In this document: positions 1 to 56,953 of the stretch, in pieces
Numbering within the stretch: the stretch's first letter is position 1
Layout of the letters: the number at the start of each line of letters is the position of its first letter
DNA from: Asterochloris sp. CNOR1
Taxonomy: Eukaryota > Chlorophyta > Trebouxiophyceae > Trebouxiales > Trebouxiaceae
Reading direction: 5' to 3'
DNA length: 64,000 nucleotides
NCBI GenBank assembly: GCA_963969365.1
Contig: OZ017746.1
Location: 2,852,001-2,916,000, forward strand
Program-made: the position numbers and the translations under genes
Notes under the pieces: generated by a model
What the model was told of the DNA's origin: nothing
The model's input: the letters and a program-made list of their open reading frames with translations, nothing else
Database searches by the model: none

Positions 1-1539
1 AAAGGCTCAGCTAGGGAACCACAGGAGCTGACTGTCACCACACGGCACCAGGTCTGAGCAACACGCTCCTATGCTTCAGCTGCTTTCAGCCTGTGACAGC
101 ACAGAGCGCGCCACAGCAAGCAAGGCAGTAAGCAGGCTGAACAGAGCTGGCAGGGCGGCCCCACCTGCTTGGCAATGCTGATCAGCCTCACTTGCATGCG
201 AAAGCTGGTCAGCCCACCTGCTTGTCGATGTTGTTCAGCAAACCCGCTCGGTGCTGGTCTGCCCACCTGCTGGTCAACCCACCTGCTTGTCAATGTTGGT
301 GAAGCCAAAGCGGCGCATGGCTACATCCCCCGCCAGGCGCTGTGCAGAGGCCGCCCAGTCCTGCAGTCGCCGCCAGATCTGGGCAGTCATGTCCATTCCC
401 GCCGGCAGGGAGTCCAGCTGCGTGAAATAGTGCAGCATGGTGAAGTGGAAGTGGGCCATGGCCACCGCGACACTGGAGGCCACCTCAGGGACCGCCATGA
501 GGGGGGCTGTCACTGCCTGGGCCTCCAGGAACTCCTCAATACGCCCATTCTCAAAGGAGACCTGCAGCAGGAATAGCATGTTACCTGGAGCTCTTTGCCT
601 GTAACATGGTCATTGTGGCGGTGAACGCTTTCATTGCCACAGGACACAACAGGACGAAGTCGGAATCCGGGGAGCCGCCATCCTGGGCTGTCATGGCCTG
701 AGCCTTGAGACCTGCTCTGTCCCATGTTTCAGCGGGAACCCCTGCAGAGCAGTACTGCTGCTGGAGTGCTGCTGAAAGGATGGCGCCATGGCTGTGGGCT
801 GTGGAATCTCGAAGGAGACCTGCAGCGCACCAGTAGCTTTCTCTTGCTGCAGATGCTGCGACAACCCCGACCTCCAGACAGAAAGAACCATGTGTGCTGA
901 TCAGCAAAGGTAGTCTGCAGCTTTCATCCAGCGAGCGTGAGCTGCTGTAGGTGCTTGCAGGGCCCAGCTGGTGTTGGTGCGCCTGTGGTGAGGCTTGCAT
1001 CTTGCAGCCTGCCGCCTGGATAGTAGGTGAAGGGCATGTGCAGGCTGACACGCTGGGTCCTGCAAAGGAGGTGCTCGCCAACCTGCGGAGGCAATGCTCA
1101 CCAAGACTTTGGGACCTAGCCCAGCGTCTGCGACTGCACTAAAGACCAGCTGCTCATCGTCCCTGCCAAACAGGCCACCGGCGCTGCCAAACACCCGGGC
1201 CAGTGCATGCTGCTCCTGCAGACCTGGCATTGAGGTTCAGCGTCATACACCTTGCAGATGTCAGCAGTTCTCATGTGCGCACCTGCTCTCCATCAACAAA
1301 GTCTGCCCTGTATATGAGATTGGTCATGGCACCAGAAAGCTGCTGAACCTTAATCTGATCATCATCAGCCTGAATATATTGCACTTTGAGTGGCCCTCAT
1401 CAGTGAAAACAGCTGACTGAGCAGAACACAAAGGGCAGCAGCTCTGCACCTGCCCCCAGCCCTGAATGCGTCTGAGCAGGGGCAGCAGAGTAGCCCGGGG
1501 GTTTTCGAGCAGCTCCTCCACATCTATGCTGTCGGACAT
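1..1539 (-). CDS. choline/ethanolamine kinase, N-terminal part (cut by window edge)
   Basis: Likely ATP-dependent choline or ethanolamine kinase, first step of the Kennedy pathway for phosphatidylcholine/phosphatidylethanolamine, cytosolic. Exon 1 (1539..1450) starts MSDSIDVEELLENP and ends RRIQGWGQ. Exon 2 (1369..1283) follows in phase and carries VQQLSGAMTNLIYRADF, the ATP-binding hairpin of the family. The next exon, ending at about 1092, reads ALARVFGSA, then a stretch ending DAGLGPKVL. An exon from 561 to 283 reads VSFENGRIEEFLEA, typical of plant choline kinases, then VAMAHFHFTMLHYF. The catalytic HND and DxE motifs would lie left of base 1, so the gene is incomplete. All joins I checked have GT-AG ends. 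The introns contain degraded copies of both the 5' and 3' splice junctions (155-240 and 806-836). Choline versus ethanolamine preference cannot be settled from this part; GRIEEFL favours the choline-kinase branch. Confidence 0.85.
155..305 (-). repeat. three copies of a 5' splice junction
   Basis: The kinase exon end and donor (plus strand 268-305) recur at 204-239 (about 31 of 33 aligned bases alike) and more weakly at 155-187. Each copy keeps the minus-strand AAGCAG|GTGGG junction. Confidence 0.85.
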
Positions 1540-1765
1540 TGGTGGCAGCTGACCAAGAGATGAAAATTTGGCTTTGACCGAGCAACTGCCATTTACTCAT
1601 GAGGGCAGCCCGTTTTGCAGCAAACAGGGGCAGAATGGCGACCAGTACAACTGACCTACATTCATTTCGGACCGTGGGCATGGCAGACGGTACTCTCATG
1701 GAACATCATGATCTCTTTCCCTGACAGGATCAACAACCATCCCTGCTTGTCCCAAGTTGCAGGAG

Positions 1766-2805: not shown

Positions 2806-5800
2806 ATGAGGAGCAGGCTCAAATCAAGCATTCACCAGCAAGTACTAAAGACAGATGGGTTTCAGCTAGCACAGGACAGACTGAAATCTGCAGCCCTCGA
2901 TCCCACCTTCTTTGGCCATGCTGGCTTCCCCGAGGACACTGACAGTCTGGCCTATGAGCCTGTGCAGAGGTTACTTGCGGTAATCTTTTGCCCGAACAAT
3001 GCACAGAGAGTTGCATTCCTTACTTTGCCACCTGTGTGCCAATGTGGGGAGGGGGGCAGGGGATGTGCTCGGATGAACTTGTTGGTGCCCATCGGAAGTC
3101 CTGCTTTGCATGTGCATTTGGCTGACTGCAAACCTGGCATCCATCCTGCAGGTCAGCACCAGCGATGGGCGCATCAAAATAATCGGCCATGAGGGTGTGG
3201 AGAAGACCATCAGGGCTGCAGACCACACTGGCACCCGCCATATCCAGTTCCTGGTCAACAAGGGGGCAGTGCTGCGGGTCACAGAGGTGCAGGGCCTGCA
3301 GTCTGCATGGTCATCTGCATGGCAATCTGCATGGCATTGCTGCACCAGGAGGCAGCCCCAGGCCCTTTTAGGCCGCTGTGAACATGCAGATGTGCTTGGC
3401 CCCTCACCAGGGTGGCCTACCTGTTCAGGCCCGGCTACTAGCAGCCTGGCCTGAATCTGTCCGGGACTGTAGCCAGCGGCCTCTGCTGGCTTCTCTGAGG
3501 CTTCGCATCTGGGATGCATCAAAACGCAACATTTGCCTCGCCCTCAGCCATGCCGCAAGCATCAAGCACTCAAACATCCCAGACTTGACTGCAGACTGGT
3601 GACATCCAGCTGTTCAGCATGACAGATGGCGCCCTCCTGGAGAGTGTGCCTTGCGGGGATCAGGTCACAGCAGTTGCCGTCATGCACAGCACCCCCTATC
3701 TGCTGCTGGGCTGCGAGAGTGGCGACGTAATGGTGGCCACCCTGCTGGACAGTGCTGGGGCGCCAGCGCAGGGGGCTGAGCAGGCTGCGACCCTGCAGCT
3801 GCAGCCCTACGAAGGTCAGATAGTGCCCTCTGTGGCTGGATGAGGGGGACAGGCGAGGATGTGGCCTAGGCTCTGGAAGCCGCCAGCCTGCCTGCAGCTG
3901 CGTCCCTATGAAGGAGTGCTGCTGCCCGCTCTGGTCACTCTGTGCACGTGCTGCTGAGTTTCGCAGGAGGGCGAGAAAGGTGTTGCCGGCATGGCAGAGC
4001 AGGCTGGAACAGGTGCAGTCCTATGAAAGAGTACCTGTGCCTTGGTGCATAAGAGCCAGCAGACACAAGCTGCAGGGTCCCATATATGGAAGGAACCATG
4101 CTGCTCTGCCTGCCTCAAGCTGAGGTCTCATGTACAGGCACAGGCCTTCTCCCAGCCAGGAGCGTTGGCCAAGCGAGAACTGCTGCATGTCACCGTGTTG
4201 TGCTGTCAGGCCTGTCGCAGGCTGTGCAGCAGTGCTGGAGGATGGCAGCTCAGTTGCTCACCATGCTGCCTGCAGTCACGGCAGAGATCATGGGCGGCAA
4301 GGGGCGTGTCTTGTCCCTGGCAGCGCACATGATGGGGCACCAGGCACGCATGCTGATTGTGCACGAGCAGACTGGCGCACTGGTGTGGGACGTCAGGTGG
4401 GCCCGAATGCCAAGTGCTGGCCAGAGCCGCCCTTAAGAAGCCCTGCCAGTGTCCTGCCCAGGGCGCCGCCAGTTGTTGTGCTGCCTTTGTCAGGGCAGGC
4501 CTCCATTCACAGCGCATACATCCACAACAAACAGTTGCAAGCTTTGCTGTGTGCGTCTCTGTGCATGCCACGCATTTAGAGACAGCTGTGCTGCTGCTAC
4601 GTCCCCGTCTTGGCACGCACCTCTGTGCATACCGACCCCTGCCGTGCAGGTACCAGGCAGTGGTGGTGCGGGCTTACAACGGAGACCCCCTTGAGACCGA
4701 GGATGGGCAGGAGGCACCAGCCGCTGAGCCCGGTAGCCCTGAGGCTGCTGGCAAGGCCACCACTGCGTGCTGGATCGGGCGGCATGGCAACTGCTTTGCC
4801 ACAGGGCACAAGGCTGGGGACGTCTTTGTGTGGGGACTGCCCAAATCCTGCCAGACAGGTGGGATGGCTTGGCCAGGGTGAAGCATCCCTGCTGTCAGCC
4901 CACCTTCCAGCAGGCGACACCTCTTCCAGGTGGGCCTCAGCCCTGCATGCCACAAAGGGTGCAGCCAGGCAAGGTGCTGCTTCTGCAGCAGGCAGACTCC
5001 TGACCTGGCCACCCTGTTTGCCTGCTCCCTCAGACCACAATTGAGCCATGCCTGCCTGCCTGCCCTGCACTGCGTGTGTGCAGGCCATGCATGCTGCACC
5101 CACGCACCGCTCAGTCTGTGCTCTGCCCTCCTGCAGTCATGCATGCTCCAACCTGGGCTGCCCACTCAGTCCGTGCCCTGCCCTTCTGCAGTCATGCATG
5201 CTCCTCCAAGCCCTGCCCTGCCTGTCCCTGCAGGCTGCATCCCTGCTGTACAAGCTTCGGCTAGCACCACCTGGACAAGGTGGCCATGCTGCCCTTGTCC
5301 TTGCCGCACACCTGCACCTGCATGGCCCCTGGAAGCCATAGCCAGCCTAGCTCGCCCCGCTGACTGTGCTGCCTCGCACCAGCTACACCTGCACCCTCAC
5401 CAGCAGTCTCCCCAACATGTTGCGCTGCCCTCCTGCAGCCCTCCCGCCCCTGGACGCCGGTGACGCCGTCCTGCTGGACAAGTTGAGGGTGGCTCCCCTG
5501 GACGAGGTGGCTGCCCCAGTGCGCAGCGTGACCTACGTCCCCGGCAGCGAGGCCGGGCGCAAGCACACCCTGCTTGTGTTTGGTGGGCAGGCGGCTGAAA
5601 TGCCAGACGTGCTGACCCTGGTGCCCATGCACTCACTAAATCAGGTTAGCCCTGCTGTGCGTTGCAGCCCAGCAACCAAGATGCCTGATGTGCTGTTGAT
5701 GCCCATGCATGCTTCTAATCAGGTCAAGGCCAGCAGCGGTGTCTCCCCATCACTGTGCCAGGCCAGCGCAGCGTGCAGCGCTGGTCAGGTGAAACCATGT

Positions 5801-8800
5801 GGTGCGGGCACCTTCTGCCTTCATGCATGCTCCCCCAGAAGTGCTGATGCTGTGTGTGCAATCAGTCAGGCCTCCCAAATCTCACCTTCCTCAATCGTGC
5901 CTGTGAGGGCAAGCAAGTGCCCATGGTTGTCAGTGGACACTGCACCAGGCACCTGCCCAGCGTGTCCCAAGCGATGGGCTGCCTTGCCATGTGCAGGACG
6001 CCAGGCAGGGTGCCGCCACAGAGGAGGCAGCAGGCGAGCCCCACAGCATCCCCTGGTTTGGCAATGTGCGCGGCTTTGCGCTGGTCCCCCCCGACGGGTC
6101 CATCAGCGAGCGGGACAACCCTGCAGCCGTCATGGTGCTCACCGAGGGTGGCCAGCTCATGGTTCATGACCTAAAGACCTTCCAGCCTGTGCCCCTGTCC
6201 TTGCCCTTCCAGGTGGGCACGCAGCCCTAGAGGGTGGGTCAGGGTAGAGTGCATACTTTGTAGCAGAGCCTGTAGATGTACTTGACAGGTGAGTGAAGGG
6301 CTCCCAGCCTGTTGCCCTGTCCCTTCCATTTCAAGTGGGTGCTTGGTGGTTTTGCCCTGACAGTGTTTCCAGGAAGCATGTGCTGTGACCCGCAAGTTGA
6401 GTGCCTGAGTCTGCATGTGGCACGCTGTACAGCAGCATCCTGATGTGCACCAGTGAAGCTAACACGTGACCTGCAGGAGTTACAAGTGGCCTCTGCATCC
6501 AAGTTCTGCTGCTCCTCTGCTGAGCTGCCAGCGGGCACAGGAGTGCTGCACTGCGTCACCCTTGATCGACTTCGGGTGAGTTGCATTCCTGTGCAGCCTG
6601 CAGCTCAAGAGAAGCCAGAATCCCTGTCTGTTGGCGCTTTCATTTTGCGCTGCTGAAGGACCTGCCCATACATCCTGCAGTCCAGGTGGCCCTGTGTAGG
6701 GAAATCTATCCCGGCAGGCTGGTGCTGCTCCATCTGCGTGGCGCTGCCATCTACCAGTGGTCTTGGCGCTGCCATCAGCCAGTAGTCTGCAGGCAGCCCA
6801 CTCCCCTGCTCAACCAGCCCTTGCCTTCTGCCTGCAGGCAGTGCAGAGCCACTCTCCTGGCTCAGCTGCCAAGAGTGGGACTGCAGGCAAGTGGCGCTTT
6901 GTGCTGGGCGGCGGCCAGCCCCCTTGCATGGGCTCAGGGGTCCCAGGGGCCTGTGATCTCTACTTCACAGGGCACCGTGATGGTCGGGTGCGGGCGTGGG
7001 ACATGACCAGCAACGTGCCAGCCCTGGTGGCCACTGTGCCCCATGACAGCGGCGGCCCCGGCGGGAAGCTGCGTGGTGTGGCGTCCCTGCAGGCGAGTCA
7101 ATTGGGCACCCCTTGGAGAAGGGGCCATGGGGCAGGGGAAGGGGCTGCGCCTGTGGGTGTTGGACCTTGGCTGCAGCTTCACAAGCTATGTGGGTTGGGT
7201 TATCTGGCAACTGCGCTGCATATTGTTCTTCCTTTGTAGCCAGGCAGGCACCTCGACACAGCCCAGCAAGGAGAGAAGCTGCAGCACAGAGGTGCACATG
7301 TGAGCAAGCAGATTGGGCCTTGTCTGCATGACCTGGCTCCTCTCCTCATTTTCGTTCCCTGGAGACACCAAAGACGTGTTCCCTCTGGGCAAACGTGCCC
7401 AGGGCAAGTCCCCAATTTTTGCTGACTGGGTAGCGAGAGAATTGAGGGTTGACCCTGCAGATGGACACCTTGGCTGGCCTGCTGGTGGTTTCCCATGAGC
7501 AGGGCGAGGTTCGCGTCTACCAGTTCTCGACGAGTCCCCAGGAGGTGGACTGCATGGAGCTGGACGGGCGCCACAAACCCTCGGAGCTCAAGCGCCAGCA
7601 GCCCCCAGGGTTCCAGTGCATCCTGCAGTGCACCCAGCACTCGGCGGCTGTGGGCGCAATTGCAATCGCCAGTCGCGTGCGCTTGATGGCGTTTGGGGAC
7701 GCAGAGGGGTGGCTGTCCATGGTGGATCTTGCACAGGTAGGCCAGTGTTCTTGAACTGTGCTTGTGAGTACGCTGCACTGCCTGGATGCTTGCTTGCACG
7801 CACCAGCTGGCGCAGAGACATGGGGCCTGAGGCTGCATCTGCAGCCTGGGTGCCTGACGTGCTGGACCAGTTGATTAGAGCTGTGCCGGGAAACTGCACC
7901 TAATCAACTGGACGTGATCTGCAAGAACCTGAGACTATACATCTGCCTGCAGTGCTCTGCAGAAGTGCACTGTGGACTAGGCTGCAGTCAAGAGCGCCCC
8001 ACAGAGTATTATGGAATTTGGTTGCCTGCACCAAAGTATCTGCATTCATGCAAGTGACCAGCAGGGCTCCATTTGGCTATTTGCACTGCGCACGCTGAGA
8101 CTGTGTATCTGCCTGCAGCCTGCAGTGCTGTACAATATCAAGCTGGCTGATCAGGCAATCTCCTCGCTGCACTTTGCGCCACACACCATTGGGCCCCCGC
8201 GAGCCTCCCCCAGCAAGCCCGGAAAGGCATCTCATGCGGACCGCCGGCTGACAGTCGATGCGCCCAATGATAGCAAGTGAGCGCTTCGGACTCCTGCCAC
8301 TCTCAGACGGCTGCTCGCAAGCGCTGCTGAGGGTCTCGAAGTGCACGTGTGATGAGGGTGTTATGTCCTCTACCTTCACTTGTAGGGGCTCTGGAGGATT
8401 GCCAGCTGTCATCTGGTGCGGTCGGCTGTCATTGAGGTCTGCAGGCACCTGTCTGGCGTGTGCTGTGCTCATGTGAGGATGAAGGCTCAGCGATCTTAGT
8501 CAACAACACCCATAAAAGTATGTGTGTACACCCTGAAAGGGTGGCACCGCTGCCCTGGCAGACCCTAGCGCCAGTATGCCATTGGGTTGCCGGCCTCGAA
8601 GAAGCACCTGTGCCTGCAGGGTGGCACTGTATGTCGCTCTAGCGGACTCAAGTGTGGGTCTGGTGGATGCTGAGGAGGGCAGCTCCCTCAGCAACGCGCA
8701 GTGGGTGCGTCCCAAGAATGCGTGCACCGCCCTGGCCCTGGCACTGCTGGACGTGCAGGGACAGCCCCTTGGGCCCTACGCTGCCCACCTGCAGCTGCAC

Positions 8801-11800
8801 TGGGCCTGCAACAACGCAGCCCTGGCTGCAGCAGACTCAGGCAAGCCACGTGACTGTTTGTCTCCCTGTTGCATACAAGGGAAGGTTGTATATGGATGGG
8901 GGACTCGCAGGAAGGGGGGGGGGGGGAGCCCAGGGGCAGGGGTGGCTCATGCAAGCTGCTCAAGTAAGGGGTAGAAAGCATGCTGTTAGCTGCTGGATCT
9001 CGACATTACATTTGCTGCTGCCAGGCCTTCATCCTGCAGCCTGAGGCACCAACACCTAAGCATGCCAGCGTCTGCCTGTTCGCTGTCCCTGAAGTCAGTC
9101 TAGGAGCAGACATCGTGTGCCTACAGTTGCACGTGTTGCAGCCCCTGCAAATGATGAGTAGGCGCAGCCATGGCCAGCATGGGCCCCGCCCATGGGGCCA
9201 GCGTTCAGCATGCTGCTGCCAGGCTACTGTGCCACATTGAAGACGTCACGCTTTGTTTTGATGTATTCTGCAGGCAGCGAGTCGAGCGCAGCCACAGCCA
9301 GCGTGGGCCCTGCTCAGGGAGGCAGTGTGCTGTCGGACGGCACTTACCTGGGGAGTGCTGCCAGCAGGCAGGACGCGAGTGCCATGGCCAGTGCTGGGGT
9401 CATGCTGGATGAGCCCGTCCTCTCTGGGGCCACTGCGGCATCTGGCGCCACCCTCAGCTCAGGTGAGCCCCCGAGCTTGGTGCCATGCGGGCACATCCCT
9501 CAGCACAGCAGTCAGGTCAATGCATTTTGCCCGTCCAGTGGCTGAGGCTGATGCTGTGATGGGGGACGACCAGGTAGCAGACAGACCCAACCTGCTGAGC
9601 AGGTCCCAGACAGCATCTGGGCTGCTGCTTCTGCAGGCCTGGCCACACCTGGATGCAATTGTGCTAAGTGTTATCCAGGTGTGCAGGTCTAGGCAGCCGA
9701 AGTGGTGTTCACTTGCCTCCTGCAGCAAGCTTGGTCCTATGTAAGATGTGCCACATCACTTGCCACATTCAGCAGCAGCAGCACCTACTCTGTCGGGGTG
9801 CTTAAGACATATCGCTCTTTCCAGACGTCTGCAGCCAAGGTTGCCGCATTCTGCGCTTGGACACAGTGCTCCCATGCAAATTCAGTGCACCAAAAAGACA
9901 TGAGGTGGCCCTGCAGCCGGCGTGTATGAGGAGGAGGAGCCTGAAGCTGCAAACTCAGAAGACGACGACGACTTGCTGGCAGCAGCAGCTGCAGCCATGG
10001 AGGCGCAGGAGATGAAGAGCAAGGGGAAGAAGCATCTGGGCATCCTGGGGAAGAAGGGCAAAAAGGAAAAGGAGAAGGAGAAGGAGCAGCCGCCAGCTGC
10101 AGGGCTGGTGGCGTCCCCAGCCAAGGTGAGTGGCCAGCATGTGGGCCGCAAGCATGACGGCATGAGACACAGGGCAGCCAGCCCTGTGTAGGTGCCATGT
10201 AAGCGGCATTCCACCACACAAGTTGCACAGCAAAGCACATTGGGCAGGGCTGAGTGCGGTGGCGCGGTCGTAATTCCAGTGCAGTCCGGTCAGGGGGCCT
10301 GTGCCCGAGGCTGGTGGCTTCTTGTGTCAAGGTGAGCATCGCTGCAGCTGCATGGAGCGCACTGCCCTGGGTCCACGCAGTGCAGTCCAGCCAGGGCAGG
10401 ATGCACCCTTCATGCACCTGCTAGTGGCCTCTTCTGACACACTTGGCACAGTGTGCGCACCGCAACGCTGCATGCTGCGAGCGTCTGGGCTGCCTGCTGC
10501 ATCTTTTGGTGGGACAGCAGATGTCCTGCGTCAAGGCTGTGGCCGATGTGGTTCCACCGCAGCCCATACTGCTGCTGTCAAATTTTAGCAGCTCGCCGCC
10601 TGTCCAGGTGCATCTGGCCAAGCATGCATGGCAAGCAGGGGTGGCACGTGGAGGCCTGCCAGGAACCGTTCCCTGCTGGCTGCTCCCTGCACTGCTCCTC
10701 ATGCTGCCTGCAGTCCTCTGGCGGGCTCTCATCCAAGCGCTCAGGCAACGTCTTTGCTGCATCCCCTGTGAGATCTGAGACGTCAGAGGGGGGCCATCGG
10801 GGCTTCTTTGGGAAGGCGCCCATTCCTGCATCGCCCACAGGTGGGACAGCAGCACTGCTCATGAGCAAGTGTGGCAGCGCACAGCCTACCAGTTGCACTG
10901 CAGACATCCACTCTCCTGGCCTGGCTGTACACCGTGCTTGCTACGCTGCTCTTGCCATCCAGCCTCTTGATCTATACGCCTTTTAGCGCCTGGACGCCAG
11001 CCTGAACCTGCGTGACACCATAGTGTCACACGTCAACTTCTGTGGTCGCAAACCAAGTCCACTGTGTACATGCTGCAGGCTCAGTGGGCTCAGCCTTCAG
11101 TTCTGTTGCCCCCGGCTCTGCTCGTTTGCTGGCAGCTCCACTGTCAGAGCACATGGTGGCAACAGCATCGCTGGATACAACGCCAGTGGCCCCCGTCGCC
11201 CATGTGCTCCTATGCACGGACAACACGCTGCGCTTGTACCCTGCAGACGGCCTGAAGCAGGGGGACAGGTGTGCCCTTTGGCGGCTTGTGCTTCAGCCAA
11301 GTGAACCTGACACTGATTTGTTAGCTGCCTGCACTTCCAGGGTGCAGGCGTCTGGTCTGCTGGCTGGTGAGGTCTGCCTTGCCGTCGTTCAGGCTACATG
11401 AAGCATGTTGCATGCAACAATGCTGGCTTTGAGTGGGACAGCATCGTGTAGCTCTCACAAGTGATACCTCAACATTGCCTCGCATGGGCAGGCCTGAAGC
11501 AAGGCCGCTCACGGCTTGCAGCCTCTTTCGGACCCCTGTACACCTTTGCCTGCCAGGTCAACAGTCAAGAAGGCGCGATTACTGGAGGCAGTGGGCTTTG
11601 CAGCAGTCTTTGACAGCCAGCACGGGGCTGGCGTGGTGGCAGTGTCCCGCTCAGGAGGGCTGCAGGTGGGTCACTGTCTCTGGTGGGCACAGCTTCACCG
11701 CTCTGGTGGGCATCGCAATAGCCTGCTGCTATTGCTGCGCCACATGGGCTGCCTGCTGAGCATGCCCCTGGTCCAAGGTTGTTTGCACCTGGTTCACTCT

Positions 11801-14800
11801 GGGCAGACGCCACCTCAGCTCCCTCTGCCCTCAACTGTGCCTCCCGCTGTGTGTACCGCTTAGCAGATTGACCGGCGCGGTCGCTGCTGAGGTGTGCCCA
11901 ACTCTGCCCTGCGTACAGGTGCTGGCCCTGCCCAGCCTGGAGCCTCTGCAGCAGTTCAGCCTGGCAGCCTGCCTGGGCTTTGCTTGGTCCTGGCAGGAGG
12001 ACGCCTTCCCCACCACCTCGCTGCATAGCTTGTGTGCACTGGCCGCTGATGGGCAGCTGGCCATGGTGAGACAGCATCTGTGTCTCTGTGAGCACGCTGA
12101 GCGCACCTGCAGCCCCTCTGCAGCGTGCCCAAGCTGGATATGTGGCTGCATGCGGTGCCCACAGCTGCATCGATGGCCTTGTAGATGTTCAGCAGCCCTC
12201 AGCCCTGCAAGTGCTTGCACCTTTGCAGGTGACAGCAGCATGACCTGTATTGCCCAAAGCGCCCATCTGCCCAGCCAGCTGCGCTGCAATGAGCCTCTCC
12301 TCTGGTCGCAGAGCTGGACAGCCGCACGGCCTGCACAGATGCCACCATGCCCGGCTTGCAGTGCTGTTATCCCTCACAGCCCCTGCTCTCCCCTGCTGCA
12401 GGGTCGTCGCCGCACATACAGTGGTACCACCTGCTTAGGCGCACTTGCGCTGCCAGCACACCTCGTGGCCCTCACCTCTCTGCTGTGAGCCCCTGCACAC
12501 GAGGTGACCCCTCTGCCTTGGCCCCTTGGCAATACACCTCCCAGCCCCTCAATCCTGCTGCAGATCGGCCCCTGCAATGAGGTGGCCCGCGTGTGCCTGG
12601 TGCGCGGCGTGCCCCAGCCCGCCGAGCCCGCTTCACTGTACGACTTTGAGCTGGCACAAGCGGCAGTGGCCACCGCCCGGGCGGTGGCCCAGTTTGAGGA
12701 GAGGGAGCGGGAGCAGCCGGCAAGGGAGAGGCACCCCACCCAGGACCTGCGGCGAGGTGAGGGGCAGTGCTGGGTGGACAGTGGGTGTGTGCAGGGATGC
12801 AGGGGCCAGGGCCTGCACAGCGGTGCGTGATGCACAGCAGTGCAAAGGCGGGGCCTTAGCCCTGAAGCCTGCAGCGAGGTGTGAGGCAGTGCTGGGGGGG
12901 CAGAGGCTCTGGGCGGAATGCTGTCATTGCATAGCACAGGCGCAGCACAGGGTTGAGGTGGTGCTGCCAGGGAGGGGCCCCAGTCACAGGGCATGCAGCA
13001 GGGTCAGGCTGATGCGTCGTGGGACACTCTCTGGGCTGGGCTTTCGGCACAAGGCTTTCACAGCAGTGGCATGGTGCTGCAGAGTGCTTGAATTGCACAC
13101 CAGGCTGGTCAGTGCTTGCGCCCTGGGCCCTAGTTTCATGTGGGCCACTGGCTACCCCTTGTTCTTGCTGTCCCATACCTGCAATTGCCGCTTAGTGGTG
13201 GACTCCGCATGCAGACCTGCCGCGGACGCAGGGCTCAGGCATCGGTGGCTTCCTCCACAAGGTCACAGATGTGGCCACCAAGGTAGGCGCCAATCCACTG
13301 AGCCAACCAGCTTCACTCACGATGGCTTATTTGCAGAGCTCTGAAGTGTAACGCATGTGCACAGCTGCCCCAGGCCCCGGCTGCTACTGCCCTGTGAGCC
13401 TGTGGGGATGCCACGCACCACCCGGTGTGATGTATGCTCATCTCAGGCCCCTGTCCTGATGTGCAGGTCATCGATGAGTCCGGCAGGGAGCTTCACACCA
13501 TCGGCAAGCACCTGCACCAGGACTTTGACCGAATTGGCAAGAGCCTGGTTGGTGAGTTGCAGAAGCTGCTGGCGCTGGTCACCGCACAGGCAGCCTCGCT
13601 TTCCACAACTGTGGGAGTGGTGGCCTGCAATCAGCAGCCTTTCATGCTGTGATGAGGGTTTGAGGCCCGCCTGCAATGGGTGCAAGCTGCAGGAGGCAGC
13701 TACCACTGCACATGACGGTGCACGCTGTCCTCGAAGGGGAAGACCTATGCTTTGCCGAACTCCCCTGTAAGTACCATCACGTGGCCCAGTGGGCTGTCCC
13801 TGCCCGCAGGCCACGCAGCAGGCTCTGCACCCAAGCGCCCCCCTCCCCCTTCCCTCAGTCAGTTGTTCAGCAGCACTGCTCAGGAGCCTGCAGCTCTGCT
13901 GCTGGAGCCTGATGAGACACCCAGCACAGGCCTCAGTCTGAGGTGAGCGCCGTGCTGGCTGCCCGCTGTTGTTCGTGGTGCCCACAGTGTTGGGCCCTGT
14001 CTGAGGTGAGAGACCTGCTGGCTGCTCCGTCTCACCTGGAAGCATGTTCCAGGCGCCGCTTGAGCAAGCAACCAAGCTTTGCGCGGCCTGCGAGGCCCCA
14101 CCAGGTCGGCATCTGCCAGCAGAGCGTGATGAGGCCCCTGAACAGGATTTGTTGTACGTAAGAGCCATGCTGGCTGCATATAATGATGATGCATCGTGAT
14201 CCTTTCTGCTTTGCCCAGTGTGTCCTCCTAGGCTGCATGCTGTGCCACTGCTGAGCGGATGTACCCTGGCAGTGCGGCAGCCATTCTTTCACTAACTCCA
14301 TCTGTCTGCTACTGGCTGCAGTGGCACACAGTAGCCTGGGCATTGCTGGCCAGGGCGGCCCGCCTTCAGGGCAGAGCAGCTCAGTTGGCGCCCCATGCAT
14401 CTCTGTGATGGCCTTATCGATGCCGCTGCTGCCTGCAGTGGCACCCAAAGGTTGGGAGTTGGCGGCCAGGCCGGCCAGCCCTCTCGGCGGCATACCTCTG
14501 AACAGCTCAGTCGGCGCCCCACGACTGATGCCTTCAGCTCAGGCGCAGCATCGTCAACTCCCATGGCTGGTGGCAGGCACGCAACCCGCGACCAGGGGGC
14601 AGAGGCTGGCCCTAGCCCGGATTGTGAGCTGCAGTGCATGCCAGTCCTGGAGTGCCTGAGCTTTGCTCTGGCCTTTTGCTGCTGCTGCCCAGCCCTGCAT
14701 GCGGCTTGAGGGAGTTCAATACTGACCGCTGGGGCAGTGCTGCTCAAAAGGCAGACATATCGAAAGCATGCTGTGAGTGTCCTGCCATGCAGCTATGGAG

Positions 14801-15503: not shown

Positions 15504-15692
15504 TGGTCGCCTTGATGCCCCTCTCTTGACCCCTCACATTTCTTGCTTTGTAGCTTTTGATTTTCGGATTGGGTCTTAGCACCAGGAATGCATGTTTCAA
15601 TGTCATATTGTTGGATGCGCCCCTTCAATGCAAGGTCAACTGCATATGTCGAGCATAATCTTGAACTGCAGTCAAGGTTCTAATGTGAAATA

Positions 15693-22800: not shown

Positions 22801-24401
22801 TGGGACTGCTTTGGGCACGATTGCTGCTGGGCTGAGGCTACATTCCATCTTGACAGCATGCCAGGTTAAGGCTTCACTTCACTTCAGGGTGTGCTGCAGC
22901 AGCCCATGCAGCTCCAGCGTGTGATGCAAGGTCATGCCTGGTTCAAGAAGCACCCCCCCTCACCAGTGCACTGCCGCCTCCCTGCAGCACACCATCTTTG
23001 GCCTGAGCAAGGACTGGTGCGCCTCTGGCCTGCGAGTGGGCTGCATGTACACCCACAACCCAATGCTGTGCAAGTCCCTGGGCAACATGGGCTACTTCTG
23101 TGGCGTCTCTGGGCTGGCCCAGTACATCCTGGCCAGAGCTCTGGAGGACCTGTCCTGGGTGGACATGTACCTGACCGAGAACGCAAACCGCCTGGGTGCC
23201 TCATACAACATCCTTGCTGGTGAGTTCAGAGCTGAGTAACCTGTGCTGCAAACATAGCCTGAGCCATGCAACGGCAGCCCTGGGTGGACAGCTGCTGGAC
23301 CGAGACACAGAAGACCAAGTCTTGGAGGCAGCTTACCTCATCCTTTTGTTGTGATCTGTAGGTAAAGCATGCTGCTTTGTGCTGCTCTGGTGAGCTGCAC
23401 AGATCGTGTCAAGTGTCGGCAATTGTGTGGTGGCAGCTGCATGCGTCAAGGAGGCCTGATTTGTGCAGCATCCCAACGTCAGCTGTTGAATTCAAGCAGC
23501 ATTGTGTGCCTGCAGATTGCCTTACGAAGGCCAAGATCCCCTTTCAGCCTGCCGTGGCCACTGTCTTCTGCCTGGTCGATCTGAGAAAGGCCCTTGCTGA
23601 GCCCACTTGGGAGGTAAAGCCTGCCTCAAGGGCTAGTCACACGCAACTGCCCAGCACTGATGTGCTGCACCTGGGGTCCTCTTCTGTCTGCTTTGCTGCT
23701 TCGTGCAAGAAATGGCACCCGATGTGCGGGTTGGGCAGGCAGTGAGCCTTCAATGCACTGCTGGCTGCTCTGAGGTGGCCCCAATCTTGTCAGCTGGTGT
23801 GGGGCAGCCTCCCCATTGCGCCTTCTGCCAACTAATTCTGCCAGGGGTCAGCATTTATATGTATATATGAAGGTCTGCAGTGCCATGACTGCCTGATGTC
23901 ATGTCAGCTTACTCCACCTTGCAGGCTGAGCGAGAGCTGTGGGAGGAGGGCTTTGTTCAGAGGGCAGGTCTCATAATCACCCCAGGTCTGGCTGCTGACC
24001 ATGCTCATAGCCAGACCCCTTGTTTTCTCTGGCTGCTCACCCTGTGTCTGCCTGCAGGCAAGGACTGCCACTGTGCTGAGCCTGGCTTCTTCAGGATCTG
24101 TTATGCAATTGTCCTGCCAGAGGTCATCCCTCTGCTAGTCAGGCGCATCACTGATTATATCAGCAAGTCACCCCAGGAGCGAAGAAAGGTTCCAATAAAG
24201 CCCTGGCTGGCTTCAGACAAAGCAGAGGTGAAGGCTGATGGCAAGGCAGAGACAAGGAAGGCGTCTTCCAAAATGACCCACCCAGCGCCACAGGAAGAGA
24301 TGCATAAGGAGGCCGCCAAAAAGGACCACATGTCATCCCAGGCACAGATGAAGAAGTCGGTCTCGAAGAAGGAGACCACACCACAGCCCGAGCGCAAGTG
24401 A
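19818..24401 (+). CDS. ACC-synthase-like class I/II PLP aminotransferase
   Basis: Member of the ACC synthase/ACCS-like group of PLP enzymes. A short first exon at 19818 reads MSPDHGLSVRGMRSTKR, matching the LSxRG opening. The next exon ends at 20459 with IAENRLTADLVQKRLQ, then FYDNMSGIAKFKAALAKML. Further exons: 21104..21171 (ELLTISSGCGAIVDNA), one ending near 21473 (FALTDAGNG, PYYPAFDWDLT), about 21686-21789, then VLLVTNPDNPTGKVYSRE, SDEVYANAIFG, and FGLSKDWCASGLRVG with the PLP-binding lysine. The C-terminal exon ends PGFFRICYAIV plus a Lys/Glu-rich tail of about 65 residues up to 24401, longer than usual for the family. It could make ACC, but ACCS-like proteins often do other C-S lyase or aminotransferase reactions, so substrate is open. 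The join between the first two exons is unresolved. Confidence 0.87.
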
Positions 24402-41400: not shown

Positions 41401-44400
41401 CTGCGGCAACATGCTGGCAATTGCCTTTGCGCTTCAAGCAGGTGCCTTCATATACCCAAGGAGCATGCAGCACTGTCTCTTGCTGACACAGACAGAGGAG
41501 CGATGAAGATCAGTGCGATCAGATTGCCTCTCAAAATTTGCTTCACAACAGGGTTGACTGACCTGCATGCAATGGGATCCAGTGCGTCCCGCGGTGACAT
41601 GCTCTTGCGCTCGGCCTCTAGCCTGAACCTGCTGGGCTTGGGGGTGAACTCGCGCACGGGGCCCCTGCTGCGCAAGCGCCGCGGTGTGCTGGCAGCCTGT
41701 GTGGGGGGGGGCGACGTCGGAGGCAGCCTGGCAGACCCGGCATCTGCCACATAGCCTGCAAGCACAGGCAGGGCCTGCTGGTGCTGCAGCAGAGGGGGGC
41801 TTTCAAGCGAGGAATACTTGTGGCTGCCTGCCTGCAGCCTGACCTCCCCGCCACAGCGGCTGTCAGCAGCCATGCAGGGTGCAGGAGCCTGCTGCAGCTG
41901 ATTGATGCAGAAGTCAGGCCGATGGCAAACCATGTGCCTCGAGGCAGCCAGCAGCGCACTTTGTGCTCACAAGGCAGGTATGTTGGTCCAGCTGACCCAC
42001 ACACAACCTGGAAACCAGTCGCAGAATGCACAGACGCAGGGGGTCATCCGGCGGTTGTGCAACAGTGTTAGGGCGCCCTCGCTGTGCTCGAGCATGCTGA
42101 CAATCTTGCTTGTCTTGTGACGGCTGGTGCCAGCAGCCTCTGCGTTGAGGCAGGTCCCCAAGTGCATGGCTAGTGACAACAGACCTCCGCCCAGACCTGA
42201 GCCGCAGCAGCAGGCAATTGGCCTCACAGGACCCACTGCAATTGCTGCTGGCAGCCTCTGCCTTGTTACCATCCTCAAGTGCGGCCATCAGCAGCAGCAG
42301 TCCACACTTGTCACCTGACCCAGGGCGCCTGCTCCTGGCTGCCTCTGCATCCATGCAGGTCCCTGAGTGCACCGGCGGCATCAGCTGGATGCCACTGCTG
42401 CCGCCCCCCACCCGCGGGCTGGGCGGCCGCGGGGACTTGACTGGCTTGGCTGGGGGCAGCTTCAGGGGAGAGGTTCGGCCCCGTCGCTCTGCCGAGATCT
42501 TGGCGCGCACTGCCGCGATGGCGTAGGGGCGGGCACCCTGCTGCTCTGCGCCAGCCCTGCATCATCACACCAAGCTGCCTCAGCCCAATTGGCCAGGGGC
42601 ACTGTGGTCACAGACATACCATGGACTCAGCATCTCAGCAAGACTGCAGTGAGCTGTTGGCTGATGACGGCCCTGCATCCCACAGTCCAGCAGCCTGACT
42701 GCCACCAGACGCGTTGCAGCTGCAAGCAGCAGCTCTCTGGCTGCAGCTGCCCAGGACACGGCCATGCTGTTTAGTCTGTTGCAGCACTGTCAGGCAGTCT
42801 CTCAGGGCTCTGCTGTTTTCACAAAGCCCTGCTGACTTACAGTGGCAGTGCCGAGTGCCAGCAGCTTCAAGCACACCTGGTGGGCGGTCCCTCACGAGGG
42901 GACAGCTTGGTCAGCTTGGCTACCAGCTCCTCTGTCCCATCGTCAGCTTCACTGGCAGCGCCACTGGTTGTGTTCTGCCCTGCTGCCATGGCGCCTGAAG
43001 ACACCACCCATACATGTGTCGAATGCCTAGCATACAGCAGCAGCTGTGTACAAGACAGTTTTCAGCGTCGTTCAGGGATGGCAGGGGCTCTTTGCCAGCA
43101 TGGCGGCCTGAGAGTACCACTGGTGTACTGGCCAGCCCTGCACAGCACTGGCATTGGTTGTGGTCTGCTGAGCTGGCTTGTAGCATGGCAGCAGGCTGAT
43201 CAGCTCCACAAGATATGTGGCCTGAAGCCGCCTGCTGGCAGCTGAGCCAGCACCACCTGCTGCTGCTAGCATGGGGGCAGAAGCAAATCTTCTGCTGCAG
43301 GACAGCCAAATTGCCAAGCGGCACCCCTGCTGTGTACTGGGGCATGCCAGACTGTGGCACTGCAAGGCAGCAGATGCCTCCCTGAGGTCTTCCTTGCAGC
43401 TGAGCCCTCAATGGTCTATGGGGCACACAGCTGCTTGCCTTGCTGCTAACAGCCCAATTCTCCATGTCTGACCTGAGGGAGGGCCTGTCAGTGGCAGGCA
43501 ATCTTGATAGAGAGGAGAGGGCAAGCAGCTGCCCATCTTGCTGACATGTCAAGGGCACCTGGGGGAGAGGGTCCGTGGATGGGCCTCTGCAGCGCTTGCA
43601 GCCCCTTGACCAACGACGTCACGCTGCCAGGGGCTTCGGAGGACGCCTGTACCCCACTCTTCCCTGCCTGCGGCTGCGACAGGGCCCCAACTTGCCCTAG
43701 GCCTCCTGTCGTGGCAGCTGTCAGCCCCTTGCCATCTCTGTTGCGCCACGGCAAGCTGTCACGAGCACCAGGATGCTGTGCTGCTTTGCAACCGCCCCGA
43801 TTGCTTGGCATGCCTCTGCAGCTGGGCCCCCCAGCCTGCTGCTGGGCCAGCAGGCAAGCCAGGGTGGCATTGGACATTGAAGGCTCAGCGCCTGCAGGTT
43901 GCAACAAAGGCGTTGTACATCTTGGGACAAGTACTGGCTGGTCCTGCCTGCACCACAGCATGCACAGCAGCAACGTAGAAGGTCAGCAGAAGACATCCAT
44001 CTGCCAAGGGGCAGGGCGGGTGGTCCCACCTTCCCTCGCCTGTGGCCGGGCTCAAGCAGAGCACGAGCTTGGACTTTGGGACTGAGTGGGTGGGCCTAGC
44101 AAGAAGCCTCACCTGCCATCTCCAGGTCGGGCTCCTCATCCAAGGGCCTCAACCCTGCTCGATTGCTGCTGGTGGCGGTCGGCGGCTGGCAACTCACAGG
44201 GATCATCAGCCCAGCCTGCTCCCTGTAGCCGCCGCCACCACCTCCCCGCGCAGTGGCGCGCATGGGGCTGGCGGTCACAGCTGGTGTGGGTCCGAATCTG
44301 AAGGTGGGTGGGAACCTGAAGGGTACCGGTGCCTGTGCCGGCCGTGGCCGGTGGGCCCGGTCAGGCAGCACATGCGCATGGGGCTTCAAGGGCATGGGGC

Positions 44401-47026: not shown

Positions 47027-49122
47027 CTAGGCTTGTGACCCGGCAGGCGCTTGCATATGATGATGCAGGCCATGGCAGGTCTGTAGGAAAGCCATCACAG
47101 CTCGATCCATCCAGGCCCCCCCAAGGCAGAAAAGGTTGCCCTCCAGGAAAGCCAAGTGACCGCCACAGCGTGGTGCGACCAGGCAGACCTTGGGGTTTGC
47201 CGCGACCTCCTGCATTTCGTGGGGCAGCACGATGTCGGCACAGTCTGCATTGCGGTAGTCAGCGGTATCACAGCAACCCGGATCAGGGCAAGCAAAGCTT
47301 CCAGCATCCAAGCCAACAAACACAAGGTGAGCATCCTGACCTGTACTGGCATCCTTCCAAGAAAGGGATCGTCCTGTGCTACCAGAAGCAAAGTGTGTGT
47401 TCTAATGCTGGGGATGTAAGTAGTTGTTGAGGCTGCAGTGTAGTAATCCTCAACTGTGGAGAAGCCAAACAGCGCACAGACCACCCACTCATCCACATGC
47501 TTCGAAGTGGTTATGGTTTGAAGGCGTTCCTGTAGCAGCACAGTCCTGGTGGTGTCGTCTTGCCTCTGCCAGGACCATACTGGTGGCAGCAGTGAGGCCT
47601 AGGCAGGCTACACATAGGCAGACCAGCACCATCAAGTGCTGGCACAGACTGCAGCTGAGCAGACTGGCTTTCAATGCCTGCAGCAGCACAGTCGTGACAC
47701 GGGCACGTTGCCCTTCCATGTTGACCTGCTGCAGCATGCAGGGTGATGGAAGGGCTACATGGGCAAAGTGACATCACATGTGCTGGAGCAGCCTGCTTCG
47801 TGAGCAGGCTGGCTAATGAAGAAGGCTGCTAGCCGTTTTCAAGAAGCATGGTGTGTCCGTAAGCAAGCTCACCAATTCCAGTGCTTGATGCTTCCCCAAT
47901 GCCCCCCAGTGCTCCAGAATGTAGGCTTTCATCCGGTGCGCCAGCAGCCTGCCGTACACCCAGCCTGAAGACCAGGTCTTGGCCAACCTTGTTGTTGACA
48001 GGTGCATGCAGCAGGGGTTGCTGACCAACGCTGCTCCCCTGATGCGCTCACCTGCACTGAAAAGCCATGTCTGCAGCACTGCATCCTGAAAAGCTGCTGG
48101 CTGTGCATACTATCAACGCCAAGCAGCTCGGCACAAGGAGTGCAGCAGTGTCAATGCTGATGTGCCAAGCTTCTGGCGTGATGAGCTGCTGACCTCCAGG
48201 TTCTGTCAGTGCCTTCGCCAGGATCATGGAGCCGAGGCTGTACCCTGCTGCATACACTGGCGCTGCTTCATGCTGCTGACTGATGTGGTCCACAGCCTGC
48301 AGACAAGGCAGCATCTGAGACCAATTGTTGCTGCAAAGTCACCCAGAAAAAGCAGGTGCCTGCAGATGCTCACCAGGTGGATGTCCTCTGTATGTGCTGC
48401 ACTGTAGGTGAGGGGACTTGTCATTTCCAGGCCTGCACAGCCCCGATAGCACCTGCAAGCAGCTGCTGCCACACAAATCATTGCTCCAGACTGCTGCTGA
48501 CTGCCTGCAGAGCGGCCATGTCGTATACTTACAGCACCACAGCCCTCCAGCCCCGTCTGGCAGCAGTCTTACAAATCCACTTGCTAGCCCCATCTTTGCT
48601 GCCGCCTGCACCGCAACTCAGCATTCGCTGCGCCATGGCATGACCGTCCTCAGGCATGACGAGTGGCTCTTGCCTTATGCTCACCAGTCAACCCATGCAG
48701 CACCAACAAGATGGGACTTGAGAGTGAGAGAGCAGGGTCTGAAGAGGTGCTCTGCCACCAGTCAAGGGACACAGTGCCACCATCTGGACAGGCGAGCAGC
48801 TCCCGGTGATAGCGGGGCCAGCATGTCAGGCCCCGCATAACTGCAGCACAGCATGGGATGTGGGAGTCAGCCATCATCAGTTTAGCAGCACGACAACTCA
48901 AGAGTGCGCACCTCCCAACGCTGTCATGATGTGTGGGTTGAAGGCCAGCATGGGCGGTCTGTATATGCTGAATAGCAGCTTGCATTGCTGCTGCAGCAGT
49001 GCCTGCAGGGGGCCTTTGCAGACAACCAGTGGACGTGTGCATTGTCTGATCCAGGTGTAGATGTACAGGCTAGCAGCAAACACTGCAGCTGACTGCAGGA
49101 TCCTATGTTGCTGCTGCTTCAT
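47027..49122 (-). CDS. EMB8/ABHD1-3-15-like alpha/beta hydrolase, copy A
   Basis: Member of the YheT/EMB8/ABHD1-3 hydrolase family, lipases or esterases that are often membrane-anchored. Start at 49122 (MKQQQHRILQSAAVFAASLY, a likely N-terminal anchor; ATG 49140 also in frame), then FSIYRPPMLAFNPHIMTAL. Later exons: TVSLDWWQ with ILLVLHGLTG; RGCAGLEMTSPLTYSAAH; VYAAGYSLGSMILAKAL with the nucleophile serine in GYSLG; GAALVSNPCCMH; FSTVEDYYTAAST; LLLVAQDDPFLG with the catalytic Asp; and CGGHLAFLEG with the catalytic His. Stop at 47027. All triad residues are present. It lies directly downstream of a second family member on the same strand, so the pair likely arose by tandem duplication. Substrate unknown. 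Confidence 0.86.
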
Positions 49123-53926: not shown

Positions 53927-53983
53927 CTGGTGGAAACTCATTGAATTCAGCATGGACAAATGTGCAAGCTGCAGACGCTGCAA

Positions 53984-56953
53984 TCAAATGATGTCCACTT
54001 GTTTGGTTGTACCATTTGAGTCTGGCACAAGCTGCCCCAGCTCTGGCTGGTTATGCTGCAGCTTGCGCAGCTCCACTTCAATGCGTACAAACATCCACTG
54101 GAAACGCCTGAACACTTCAAGGAGGGTGAACATCAAAACTGTGAAGTGGTTTCGTCTGAGGTGAGGGGACAGCTTGTACGTCCAAGACAGCCTGAGTACA
54201 AGATTGGAGAGCATCAAGTACGTGTAGAATGCCTTGTGATACAGCAGCTTCTCCTTCAGCACCGGTTTGCGCACTCCCATCACTTTCTCATCTGCGGCAT
54301 CAACCGCGCAGCGTCTCAGTGTGGCGCCTGCTGCATCAGCTGGGCAGTACGTGCAACATGACATCACTGCAGCAGCAGGCTGCACAAAGCAAAAAGGACA
54401 GGCCCATAAGCAGCTTGTGGTCAGGGTAAGCAGGTGCACCTTGCTTTGTGCGCAGGCATGCTATAGAGGAAAAGGAGCAAATGTATTCATGTTTTGTGCA
54501 ATGCAGATTTGCTTGCAAAAGTTGCAAAGGCAGGGTGTACAAGCACAGGGTACATGCCCAAGAGCGACATGCAGACAGACAGCCTCACTTGAGGAAGAGG
54601 AAAAGAAACTGATCTCCCAGTCTCGCTCGATGTCCCAGTAGTAGGAGTAGCCAGAGTTGAGGCATGCCGACAGCAGCCACAGGGGCTTGTATGCGCTATT
54701 CCATTGCCCCAATGTTACATGGTACTTCATGCTGGACAGGATGATGACGGGAAAGGCCGTGCTATACTTGAGGGCGTTGAACAGCTGGGGACGGGCCCCT
54801 GTGTCACGGTAGACGCGGATGCACTGGCAGAGGCGCCAGACGTAGGGCAGGCACAGCGTGAAGGCAATCAGCCAGGAGCTGCTGCCGCAGACCTTCAGCA
54901 CAGGACAGACGCGTTCGGCAGCGCTGGTCGTAGCGGCAGGCACGGCTTGACAGCAGTTGGCCAGGAGGCACAGCTCTGCAGGCCCATGGGATGGGCCTTG
55001 CAGCCAGGCCTCATCTACAGAAGCAGGCGGCAATATCCTACATGTTGTCAAGGAGTTCAACCCACTGCAATGGCATGCTCCCATCAGTTCAAACTGTGAC
55101 TGATAGTGAGAGTCAGGGTCCAGCAGGCGCAATCATTTGCCTTGAGCTCGAGGCTGCATTGCTGAACATGGCGGCCTCACAGCCGAGATGGAGCTGAGCC
55201 CACCTGTACAGTGCTGGCAGGCAGCATGACTGGACCAGTCAGCAGGTGGCAGACCGCCCTCTCTGCATCTGACAGCGGCTTGGCCAGGGAGGTCAGCACA
55301 TCAGCCAGCAGGAAATCCGACCACGTCACCTCGCGAAAGGGTGTGATGACCCTGAACAGGGTGTGTGCAAAGAACATGCGGCTGTCCTGCAGCACATGGT
55401 GCTGCTTGAAAAGGTGCTGCCTTGTCACAGGTGGCACAGGTGCTGAGCAGCACTGAGCTCTGCTCTCAGGCAAGTCGTGCTCTCAAGTGCATCAAGTGCG
55501 ATTGACCACTCCATGTGCAGGCTTTGAAGGGCAGGCAGAGAGGCACTTGCGCCTCGCGGGCAGGCAGGCAGTCACAGAAGCAGGACACGCGCTCACTGGG
55601 AAGGCGAAGTTGATGGGCAGCAGTAGGAACCCGAGCAGCACAGCGTAGACCAGAGGGGGGTGTGGAGCTGCACCCACCCCTTGGTAGCGGACGGCATGCG
55701 TGGTGAAAGCGGCGGCACTCATCACCACCACTGCTGTGATGAGCCCAGCAGCCTGCAAGAACGGAGGAAGATGTACCTGCCATGTGTGCTCAAAACTGGA
55801 CCAGACATTGCACACTGGCAACATGGCAGCGCAGGAACGTGCACCCTGCAGGCTAAGATTACCAAGCACAGATGGTCTCAGAGGCAGAGGTCAGGCAGCG
55901 CTGCCACAACTTGGTGGGCACACAGCGCTGCCTCAAAGAGCCTGCACCCACCTGGAAGACCTGCCTGCTGGAGAGCAGGAACTTCTGGTCCCGTGTGGGA
56001 AAGCACACATCGTACTTGACGGTGTTGCGCTCAAAGTACCGCACCACTATTCCCCACAGCCAAACCATGATTATCACGGGGATCAAGGGCTGGTAGTAGA
56101 TGTAAAACAGCTCCTCGGCTGCTTGATCCCCAGCCCTCAGATTGCCCAGGATGACCAGGGCGCAAATGCAGAAGCACAGGGCCAGGCTGGGCTTCTGCAG
56201 GGCAAGGACAGAGGTTGCTGGAGGTTGGTGCAGGCCCAGGCTGGGCTTCTGCATGACGCACGGACATGCCATCGCAGGCAAGCTGCGCAATAGCCCAAGG
56301 CCTTGCCGGGCTTTGCAGGTGGACCAAAGGCTGGTGCAGGGGTTGACAGCAGTGCCGGCCAGGCCAAGGGCTGCAGACAGGCGGTGCTACAGTCTTGGCT
56401 GCACCACATGCGGGCGCTGAAGGTGCAAGCAGTCCTTTCCAAGGGAGGCTGTCCTGCCGTCTTCAGCAAGCACAGAGAGGAGGCAGGCAGACGTGGCCGA
56501 CTGTTGGTTGAGCCGAGCTTTCCACAGCACATGCTTGTTGTTGTGCCCCCTCCTGCCTGCTCACCAGGACATGGTTGGGGATGGGCAGCAGTACCTCCCG
56601 CGGCACCAAGCGCAGACTGTGGCTTTTTGCGCTCTCCAGGGGCAGCGGTACTGTGCGGAGCTCTGCATCACTGCAGGGCAGCCAGCACAGAGTGAGCCCA
56701 GCGTCAAGGTGGTGGCGTGCTGATTCATGCTGTTAGCTCGACAAGCCGTCCCTGCAGGCCTTGGTCACCTGTCGTGGTGCTTGCTGGCAATCAGTGCTGG
56801 TTCCTGGTGCATGCTGGGGCTTCTGTGATGGGCAGGCTCGACAAACAGGCCTCGCGACCTCAGGTTGGGGGACTTTGGCGCATTGTTTGAGCTGCAGAGG
56901 GCAGGCAGCAGTCACTGGTCGATGTAGGCCAACTGCACCAAGTCATCTGCCAT
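53984..56953 (-). CDS. EXS-domain membrane protein (ERD1/XPR1 family, no SPX)
   Basis: EXS family of multi-pass proteins that includes XPR1/PHO1 phosphate exporters and Golgi Erd1. Exon 1 (56953..56916, MADDLVQLAYID) joins in phase to exon 2 (56670..56565, AELRTVPLPLESAKSHSLRL). Later exons: ELFYIYYQPLIPVIIMVWLW with YFERNTVKYDVCF; AAGLITAVVVMSAAAFTT and VYAVLLGFLLLPINFAF; RVITPFREVTWSDFLLADV, the canonical EXS block; then PYVWRLCQCIRVYRDTG, FNALKYSTAFPVIILSS, GYSYYWDIERDWEI and HLRRNHFTVLMFTLLEV. Stop at 53984. There is no SPX domain upstream, as in plant SPX-less EXS proteins. Role, phosphate export or Golgi protein retention, is not decidable here. Confidence 0.88.
56179..56254 (-). repeat. 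duplicated 3' splice junction in EXS gene
   Basis: 56179-56200 and 56233-56254 share CCAGGCTGGGCTTCTGCA, offset 54 bases. Joining at the first keeps the EXS reading phase. Confidence 0.75.

Follow-up and report, generated by a model that had tools for sequence, protein, structure and literature searches.

Diverged copies of exon–intron junctions within introns of a 64 kb window of Asterochloris sp. CNOR1

Genes of the window

We analysed short direct repeats that copy exon–intron junctions into the adjoining introns of genes in a 64 kb window (the whole stretch studied, contig OZ017746.1) of the green alga Asterochloris sp. CNOR1. An earlier reading of the same stretch, hereafter the original prediction, had described such copies in at least 12 introns of six genes and had read them as the result of tandem duplications through which introns are gained or grow. 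All results below come from this one window, from our own gene models and from the literature. To obtain the models, we combined a self-trained gene finder with comparison against Pfam and PDB and then curated them by hand, gene by gene; these gene-by-gene models replaced the first output of the gene finder, which had fused genes. An open-ended first exon put the finder's gene-by-gene translations and exon scores for the tomosyn-like and ‘BRCT’ genes out of phase, whereas the internal exon coordinates of both genes match those of its first output. The curated set holds 87 complete introns and one partial intron, the first of the choline kinase gene, and has CAG|GT as its donor consensus. The palindrome CTGCAG, which overlaps the acceptor consensus TGCAG, occurs 253 times in the window, compared with about 142 occurrences expected from dinucleotides.

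Domain matches were found for the choline kinase (PF01633, E = 7.6e-18), SET (E = 1.3e-06), EXS (E = 6e-79) and PPR (E = 1.1e-09) genes, and for a class I aminotransferase (E = 8.8e-55) that we label ACS-like. The tomosyn-like gene has a synaptobrevin domain at its end (E = 3.4e-09) and WD-like matches under the Pfam cut-offs, and the match of an ABHD-like hydrolase is likewise weak and under the cut-off. A second aminotransferase, labelled KYAT-like, has N-succinyldiaminopimelate aminotransferase as its top PDB match (E = 2.8e-69), with kynurenine aminotransferase at 6.3e-67. The label ‘BRCT’ for a long gene is unconfirmed, with no Pfam match in its 210- and 230-residue parts, the only parts scanned.

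Copies of exon–intron junctions

By hand count, 21 of the 175 modelled junctions were found to be copied. They comprise 9 donors and 12 acceptors and belong to seven genes, in which 18 introns are affected; of all introns in the window, about one in five contains degraded copies of the adjoining exon edge. The copied donors are those at 283, 3814, 5644, 6212, 12756, 13942, 35834, 41563 and 42197, and the copied acceptors those at 561, 5439, 8119, 9274, 12564, 14439, 21104, 25224, 40993, 41755, 54892 and 56194. Both ends were copied in three introns (13943–14438, 40994–41562 and 41756–42196). Two more repeats in the SET gene (23132–23345 and 24244–24401) were excluded from the 21 on account of weak exon models in that region. 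The number of introns given by the original prediction, and its statement that both 5′ and 3′ junctions are copied, agree with this count; all six of its genes recur in our list, to which the ACS-like aminotransferase adds a seventh.

The copied junctions are as follows.

158–298, minus strand: choline kinase donor (exon end 283) and its copies, with decoy donors near 218 and 165
549–826, minus strand: choline kinase acceptor (exon start 561); copy 807–826 with decoy acceptor 819
3779–3934, plus strand: tomosyn donor 3814; copy 3878–3934; a third copy near 3985–4040, seen by eye only
5242–5511, plus strand: tomosyn exon (start 5439), region 5470–5511; copy 5242–5284; a tandem array at 5044–5231 lies in the same intron
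5600–5724, plus strand: tomosyn donor 5644; copy 5681–5724, decoy donor 5722 usable in frame
6174–6339, plus strand: tomosyn donor 6212; copy 6296–6339, offset 122
7929–8125, plus strand: tomosyn acceptor 8119; copy 7929–7962
9156–9328, plus strand: region of tomosyn exon start 9274; copy 9156–9204, offset 123
12451–12588, plus strand: tomosyn acceptor 12564; copy 12451–12510, AG lost
12714–13036, plus strand: tomosyn donor 12756; roughly three units of 121–122 in an array
13905–14177, plus strand: tomosyn donor 13942; copies 13993–14025 and 14122–14177
14308–14521, plus strand: tomosyn acceptor 14439; copy 14308–14395, offset 117; intron shared with donor 13942
20972–21111, plus strand: ACS-like aminotransferase acceptor 21104; copy 20972–21018
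25222–25329, minus strand: SET-domain gene acceptor 25224; copy 25283–25329; decoy score equals that of the real site
35412–35861, minus strand: KYAT-like donor 35834; copies 35661–35718 and 35412–35489
40917–41196, minus strand: ‘BRCT’ gene acceptor 40993; near-whole tandem unit of 148 bases, with 77 exon and 59 intron bases aligned
41371–41603, minus strand: ‘BRCT’ gene donor 41563; copy 41371–41415, GT lost
41722–41901, minus strand: ‘BRCT’ gene acceptor 41755; copy 41822–41901
42121–42371, minus strand: ‘BRCT’ gene coding array, unit about 87, running from exon 42197–42556 past the donor into the intron
54833–54967, minus strand: region of EXS exon start 54892; copy 54921–54967
56168–56340, minus strand: EXS acceptor 56194; copies 56231–56266 and 56287–56340; decoy 56248 usable in frame

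When 40-mers from the exon edges of the curated models were compared with their own introns, 16 of 170 reached p ≤ 0.01 (9 of 85 exon ends and 7 of 85 exon starts), compared with 2 of 170 for reverse-complemented exon edges used as a control. With the uncurated models, the counts were 18 of 172 for exon edges and 3 of 172 for the control. The signal fades into the exon, with 6 of 142 segments at 40–80 bases and 3 of 101 at 80–120 bases reaching p ≤ 0.01, and a peak within 40 bases of the junction that fades over 120 exon bases is what duplications of the size proposed below would give.

The exon contributes 3–83 bases to the copied segments and the alignment usually crosses the junction, which suggests that DNA, and not spliced RNA, was copied. 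The splice dinucleotide lies inside 20 of 25 copy alignments; the copied segment ignores functional boundaries. It falls outside the scored alignment at 42197, 5439, 9274 and 54892 and in one of the two 56194 copies, where the alignment covers adjacent exon sequence or has a gap.

The tandem character of the copies is clearest at 40917, where the aligned copy fills 136 of the 148 bases of the offset (40917–41052 against 41065–41196). The ratio of aligned length to offset is 0.92 there, 0.79 at 12451, 0.77 at 25222, 0.75 at 14308 and 0.72 at 41722. Direct, adjacent copies with an aligned length near the offset, as tandem duplication produces, are clear in about one-third of the junction cases, in which the alignment still spans the greater part of the unit (the arrays at 160 and 12714 belong here); elsewhere it is mainly the exon part that aligns. 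In aggregate, the unaligned remainders of the units retain weak similarity (mean z 0.70, standard error 0.24, n = 18), which fits tandem units and would allow some non-tandem copies.

Local direct repeats

Gapped Smith–Waterman self-comparison of the window at offsets of 15–700, with the window against itself at 12 far offsets as controls, gave 47 direct repeats at a score of at least 16 compared with a control mean of 5.1 (maximum 10), and 23 at a score of at least 20 compared with 0.2 (maximum 1). The offset was at most 300 in 43 of the 47. By offset class there were 19 pairs at 15–100, 17 at 101–200, 7 at 201–300, 2 at 301–400, none at 401–600 and 2 at 601–700, with 0.6–0.7 expected per class of about 100 bases. 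Searches with blastn at a score of at least 18 returned 29 direct and 6 inverted repeats; the 17 matches of a reversed-sequence blastn control are raw and not deduplicated, and hence are not comparable with the 29. Diverged copies were missed by an ungapped self-comparison at a strict threshold (17 pairs only) and by blastn with a word of 11 (six near pairs, of which one was inverted), and a self-comparison with laxer scoring, which fused adjacent repeats, was superseded.

Recognisable repeats cover about 10% of intron bases (2,664 of 26,126) and are present in 21 of the 87 introns. We found no interspersed family within the window, the best far match being 23 bases long (E = 0.023), nor, in this one window, a single sequence shared by numerous introns across genes, as expected of introners or mobile introns. 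The three exon-internal repeats have offsets of 60, 126 and 87, all multiples of three, whereas junction and intronic repeats are of any size; a fourth exon–exon pair, at offset 331, has an intron between its copies. The coding tandem repeats of the ‘BRCT’ gene, at these same three offsets, lie at 40644–40810 and 42204–42348, and the 87-base one continues beyond the donor into intron sequence.

Outside the curated exon models, a near-complete 148-base tandem duplication with 141 bases aligned lies at 47529–47814. Offsets of 146–148 occur in five pairs (29902–30157, 35661–35861, 40917–41196, 47529–47814 and 5044–5251), two of them within arrays. These offsets are near nucleosome size, a similarity picked out after seeing the data.

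Junction crossing compared with random placement

By geometry alone, a duplication of 90–150 bp that touches an intron of the size seen here crosses a junction in 46–64% of cases. A simulation with constrained exons gave 45–46% of placements and 47–57% of detected cases. We observed 21 of 26 (a hand count without the two weak SET repeats; a count of 22 of 27 includes both), which has p values of 0.006, 0.02 and 0.065 against shares of 0.55, 0.60 and 0.65, respectively. Of 27 repeats, 22 touch an exon, compared with 16.5 expected when the repeats are relocated at random (p = 0.0185); at stricter thresholds the counts were 19 of 24 compared with 14.6 (p = 0.04), 15 of 19 compared with 11.5 (p = 0.06) and 12 of 15 compared with 9.4 (p = 0.11). 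Junctions lying strictly inside a repeat copy numbered 17 of 174, compared with 11.5 by rotation (p = 0.08) and 12.6 by relocation (p = 0.11).

Overall, junctions are crossed 1.3–1.5 times as often as under random placement of the same repeats (p = 0.02–0.11), and the excess is at most modest. The original prediction had named repeats placed as if at random as the outcome that would count against it; the count of junctions inside copies and the count of repeats that touch an exon both come near to that outcome. Repeat coverage of intron bases is 0.084 and 0.063 within 40 bases of a junction and 0.10–0.22 beyond 80 bases. In exons it is 0.106 at the edge and 0.032 at 80–120 bases, rising deeper where the ‘BRCT’ coding repeats lie.

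Decoy splice sites and decay of the copies

Decoy sites were scored in 21 of 23 cases, with exon frames taken from our own models. Use of the decoy would bring in an in-frame stop in 17 of the 21 and a frameshift in 2 more, leaving 2 (near 5722 and 56248) that are usable without either. These two are exceptions to the view that only the outer copy can be the real site. Comparison with homologues agrees with use of the outer site at choline kinase 561, where exons were joined manually, and at KYAT-like 35834. A fair splice motif (matrix score of at least 4.5) is kept in 11 of the 21 decoys, in line with the expectation of many decoy splice sites, and the decoys at 218 and 25285 score as high as the real site. 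The gene finder was misled in the choline kinase gene, where it called 712–819 an exon from the decoy acceptor copy, and it read through tomosyn donor 5644 together with its decoy 5722. The 712–819 exon was dropped from the curated models as a decoy.

For decay, we counted mismatches in 25 non-overlapping copies, leaving out the two weak SET repeats. The exon and its copy differed at 51 of 248, 46 of 248 and 67 of 244 bases (0.21, 0.19 and 0.27) at codon positions 1, 2 and 3, respectively, a third-position excess with p = 0.02. Decay is fairly even over codon positions: the copies change without coding-type constraint, and the exon may contribute third-position changes.

Intron growth and intron gain

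Gain of an intron by duplication of an AGGT segment predicts that the intron end resembles the end of the upstream exon and that the intron start resembles the start of the downstream exon. Across 83 introns, intron ends scored 5.59 against their own upstream exon end and 5.74 against those of other introns (permutation p = 0.90), and intron starts scored 5.72 against their own downstream exon start and 5.65 against the others (permutation p = 0.30). In no case does the offset of a junction copy match the length of its intron (the first choline kinase intron, being incomplete, was excluded). The absence of the gain signature in the 83 introns, together with offsets that fall short of intron length, suggests that the visible events lengthened existing introns. 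The original prediction had left gain and growth side by side; local direct copies that include junctions support growth, and gain across AG|GT finds no support in the permutation values.

Interpretation

We consider it likely that these patterns reflect frequent, nearly neutral short tandem duplications, mostly of 50–150 bp, that lengthen existing introns, and not a new intron-making route. Short direct tandem duplications with units of mostly about 50–150 bp would accumulate in the genes of the window at the DNA level, and a duplication across a donor or an acceptor would yield two copies of that junction. Splicing at the outer copy, with which homology is consistent in two cases, would leave the protein unchanged and the event nearly neutral, and the intron would be longer by one unit. 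Substitutions and small indels would then erode the inner copy, whereas the outer one would be held by selection on the coding sequence; with such an asymmetry, junction-crossing events should stay detectable longer than intron-internal ones. Such duplications may arise when staggered breaks are repaired by end joining, a route proposed for rice.

Several observations weigh against this explanation. The residual similarity of the units rests on few cases, with z of 2.5 and 2.2 in two of 18 and negative values in five, and junction crossing is somewhat above random placement. Repeat coverage is 3.3% of bases outside the gene models and about 10% within introns, a difference that uniform neutral duplication would not produce if the outside bases decayed no faster and were correctly assigned. 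The decay asymmetry predicts a more diverged intron part, but the aligned intron part (97 mismatches in 488) is no more diverged than the exon part (164 in 740), with the caveat that local alignments end where similarity ends. Finally, the decoy GT or AG is kept in 17 of the 20 alignments that contain it, compared with 12.6 expected from the flanks (P = 0.022), which suggests that decoys are not being removed and may be kept; local alignments and the choice of cases favour kept decoy sites in this count.

The excess of junction crossing would be expected if, in this lineage, short tandem duplications arose most readily at exon–intron junctions as hotspots, with introns growing preferentially from their ends at preferred junction sites and carrying a standing stock of spare splice sites. 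The number of repeats that touch an exon, set against random relocation, points that way, as does the crossing share when set against simulated detection of 0.47–0.57, but significance is lost as thresholds tighten and in the rotation and relocation of strictly internal junctions, intron bases near junctions are no more repeat-covered than the interior, and an old burst of duplications would push the detection bias above the simulated one. We regard such hotspots as unlikely. Selection that kept the copies as functional alternative exons or spare splice sites would account for the retained decoy dinucleotides and for the decoys at 218 and 25285 that match the real site in score. Open, coding-constrained copies, as expected of alternative or mutually exclusive exons, were not seen in the codon-position mismatches, which are spread fairly evenly, nor in the 19 of 21 decoys whose use brings a stop or a frameshift, and we judge this reading to be quite improbable.

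Gain of the introns themselves, through duplication in tandem of AGGT segments from exons, was one of the two possibilities in the original prediction. It would be in keeping with the existence of both donor and acceptor copies and with the CAG|GT consensus of the models. Against it stand the two exon–intron comparisons over 83 introns; these cover visible events, and the signature of very old gains would no longer be recognisable. We hold gain to be very improbable here. An artefact of composition or of the gene models might be suspected from the frequency of CTGCAG and from a gene finder that was sometimes misled, but far-offset and reverse-complement controls of the same composition stay near chance and the excess of repeats is independent of the gene models, so that an artefact is scarcely credible. 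Short, nearly neutral tandem duplication remains our preferred explanation.

Related systems

Related processes have already been published, and the pattern differs little from the expected outcome of frequent short tandem duplication combined with selection on the protein. In the tandem genomic duplication model of intron gain (Rogers 1989), as outlined in the relevant part of a review (PMC3443670), an exonic AGGT is duplicated and supplies the two ends of a new intron; our copies share with it a short tandem duplication with splice-like sequence, but in our window it is junctions already present that are duplicated, and the only outcome is a longer intron. The summary of work on a potato RdRp gene (PMC4974935) describes a tandem duplication across an intron–exon boundary that created a new intron and changed the structure. 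As there, the segments that we describe include ones that cross a 3′ junction with its splicing signals; the difference is that we see no sign of a new intron and that our events are numerous and diverged.

In rice (Vaughn and Bennetzen 2014, as presented in part of a review, PMC7407515), tandem or partly tandem duplications are found among insertions of 10–1000 bp and are attributed to patch-mediated break repair. Short tandem duplication is a general source of DNA growth in both settings; those are natural insertions, whereas ours are diverged copies in one window with a putative mechanism. For Drosophila, the portion of PMC2891723 that bears on this subject describes novel intron positions arising through sliding or tandem duplication, which resembles our case in the duplicated splice-like sites near introns and differs in that the intron positions are novel. 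In the titles and abstract openings returned by a literature search, we found no report of dense junction copying within introns. Internal gene duplication was reportedly treated by Gao and Lynch in 2009.

Intron growth can be separated from intron gain by a test that is applicable to any annotated genome, and simple geometry makes roughly one in two duplications of this size span a junction. Decoy junctions of the kind described can mislead gene finders. If the density seen here holds genome-wide, this species would be well suited to measurements of intron lengthening.

Elsewhere in the window, a single model at 58095–59933 combines Sedlin_N and DUF751 domains and probably represents two adjacent genes fused by the gene finder.

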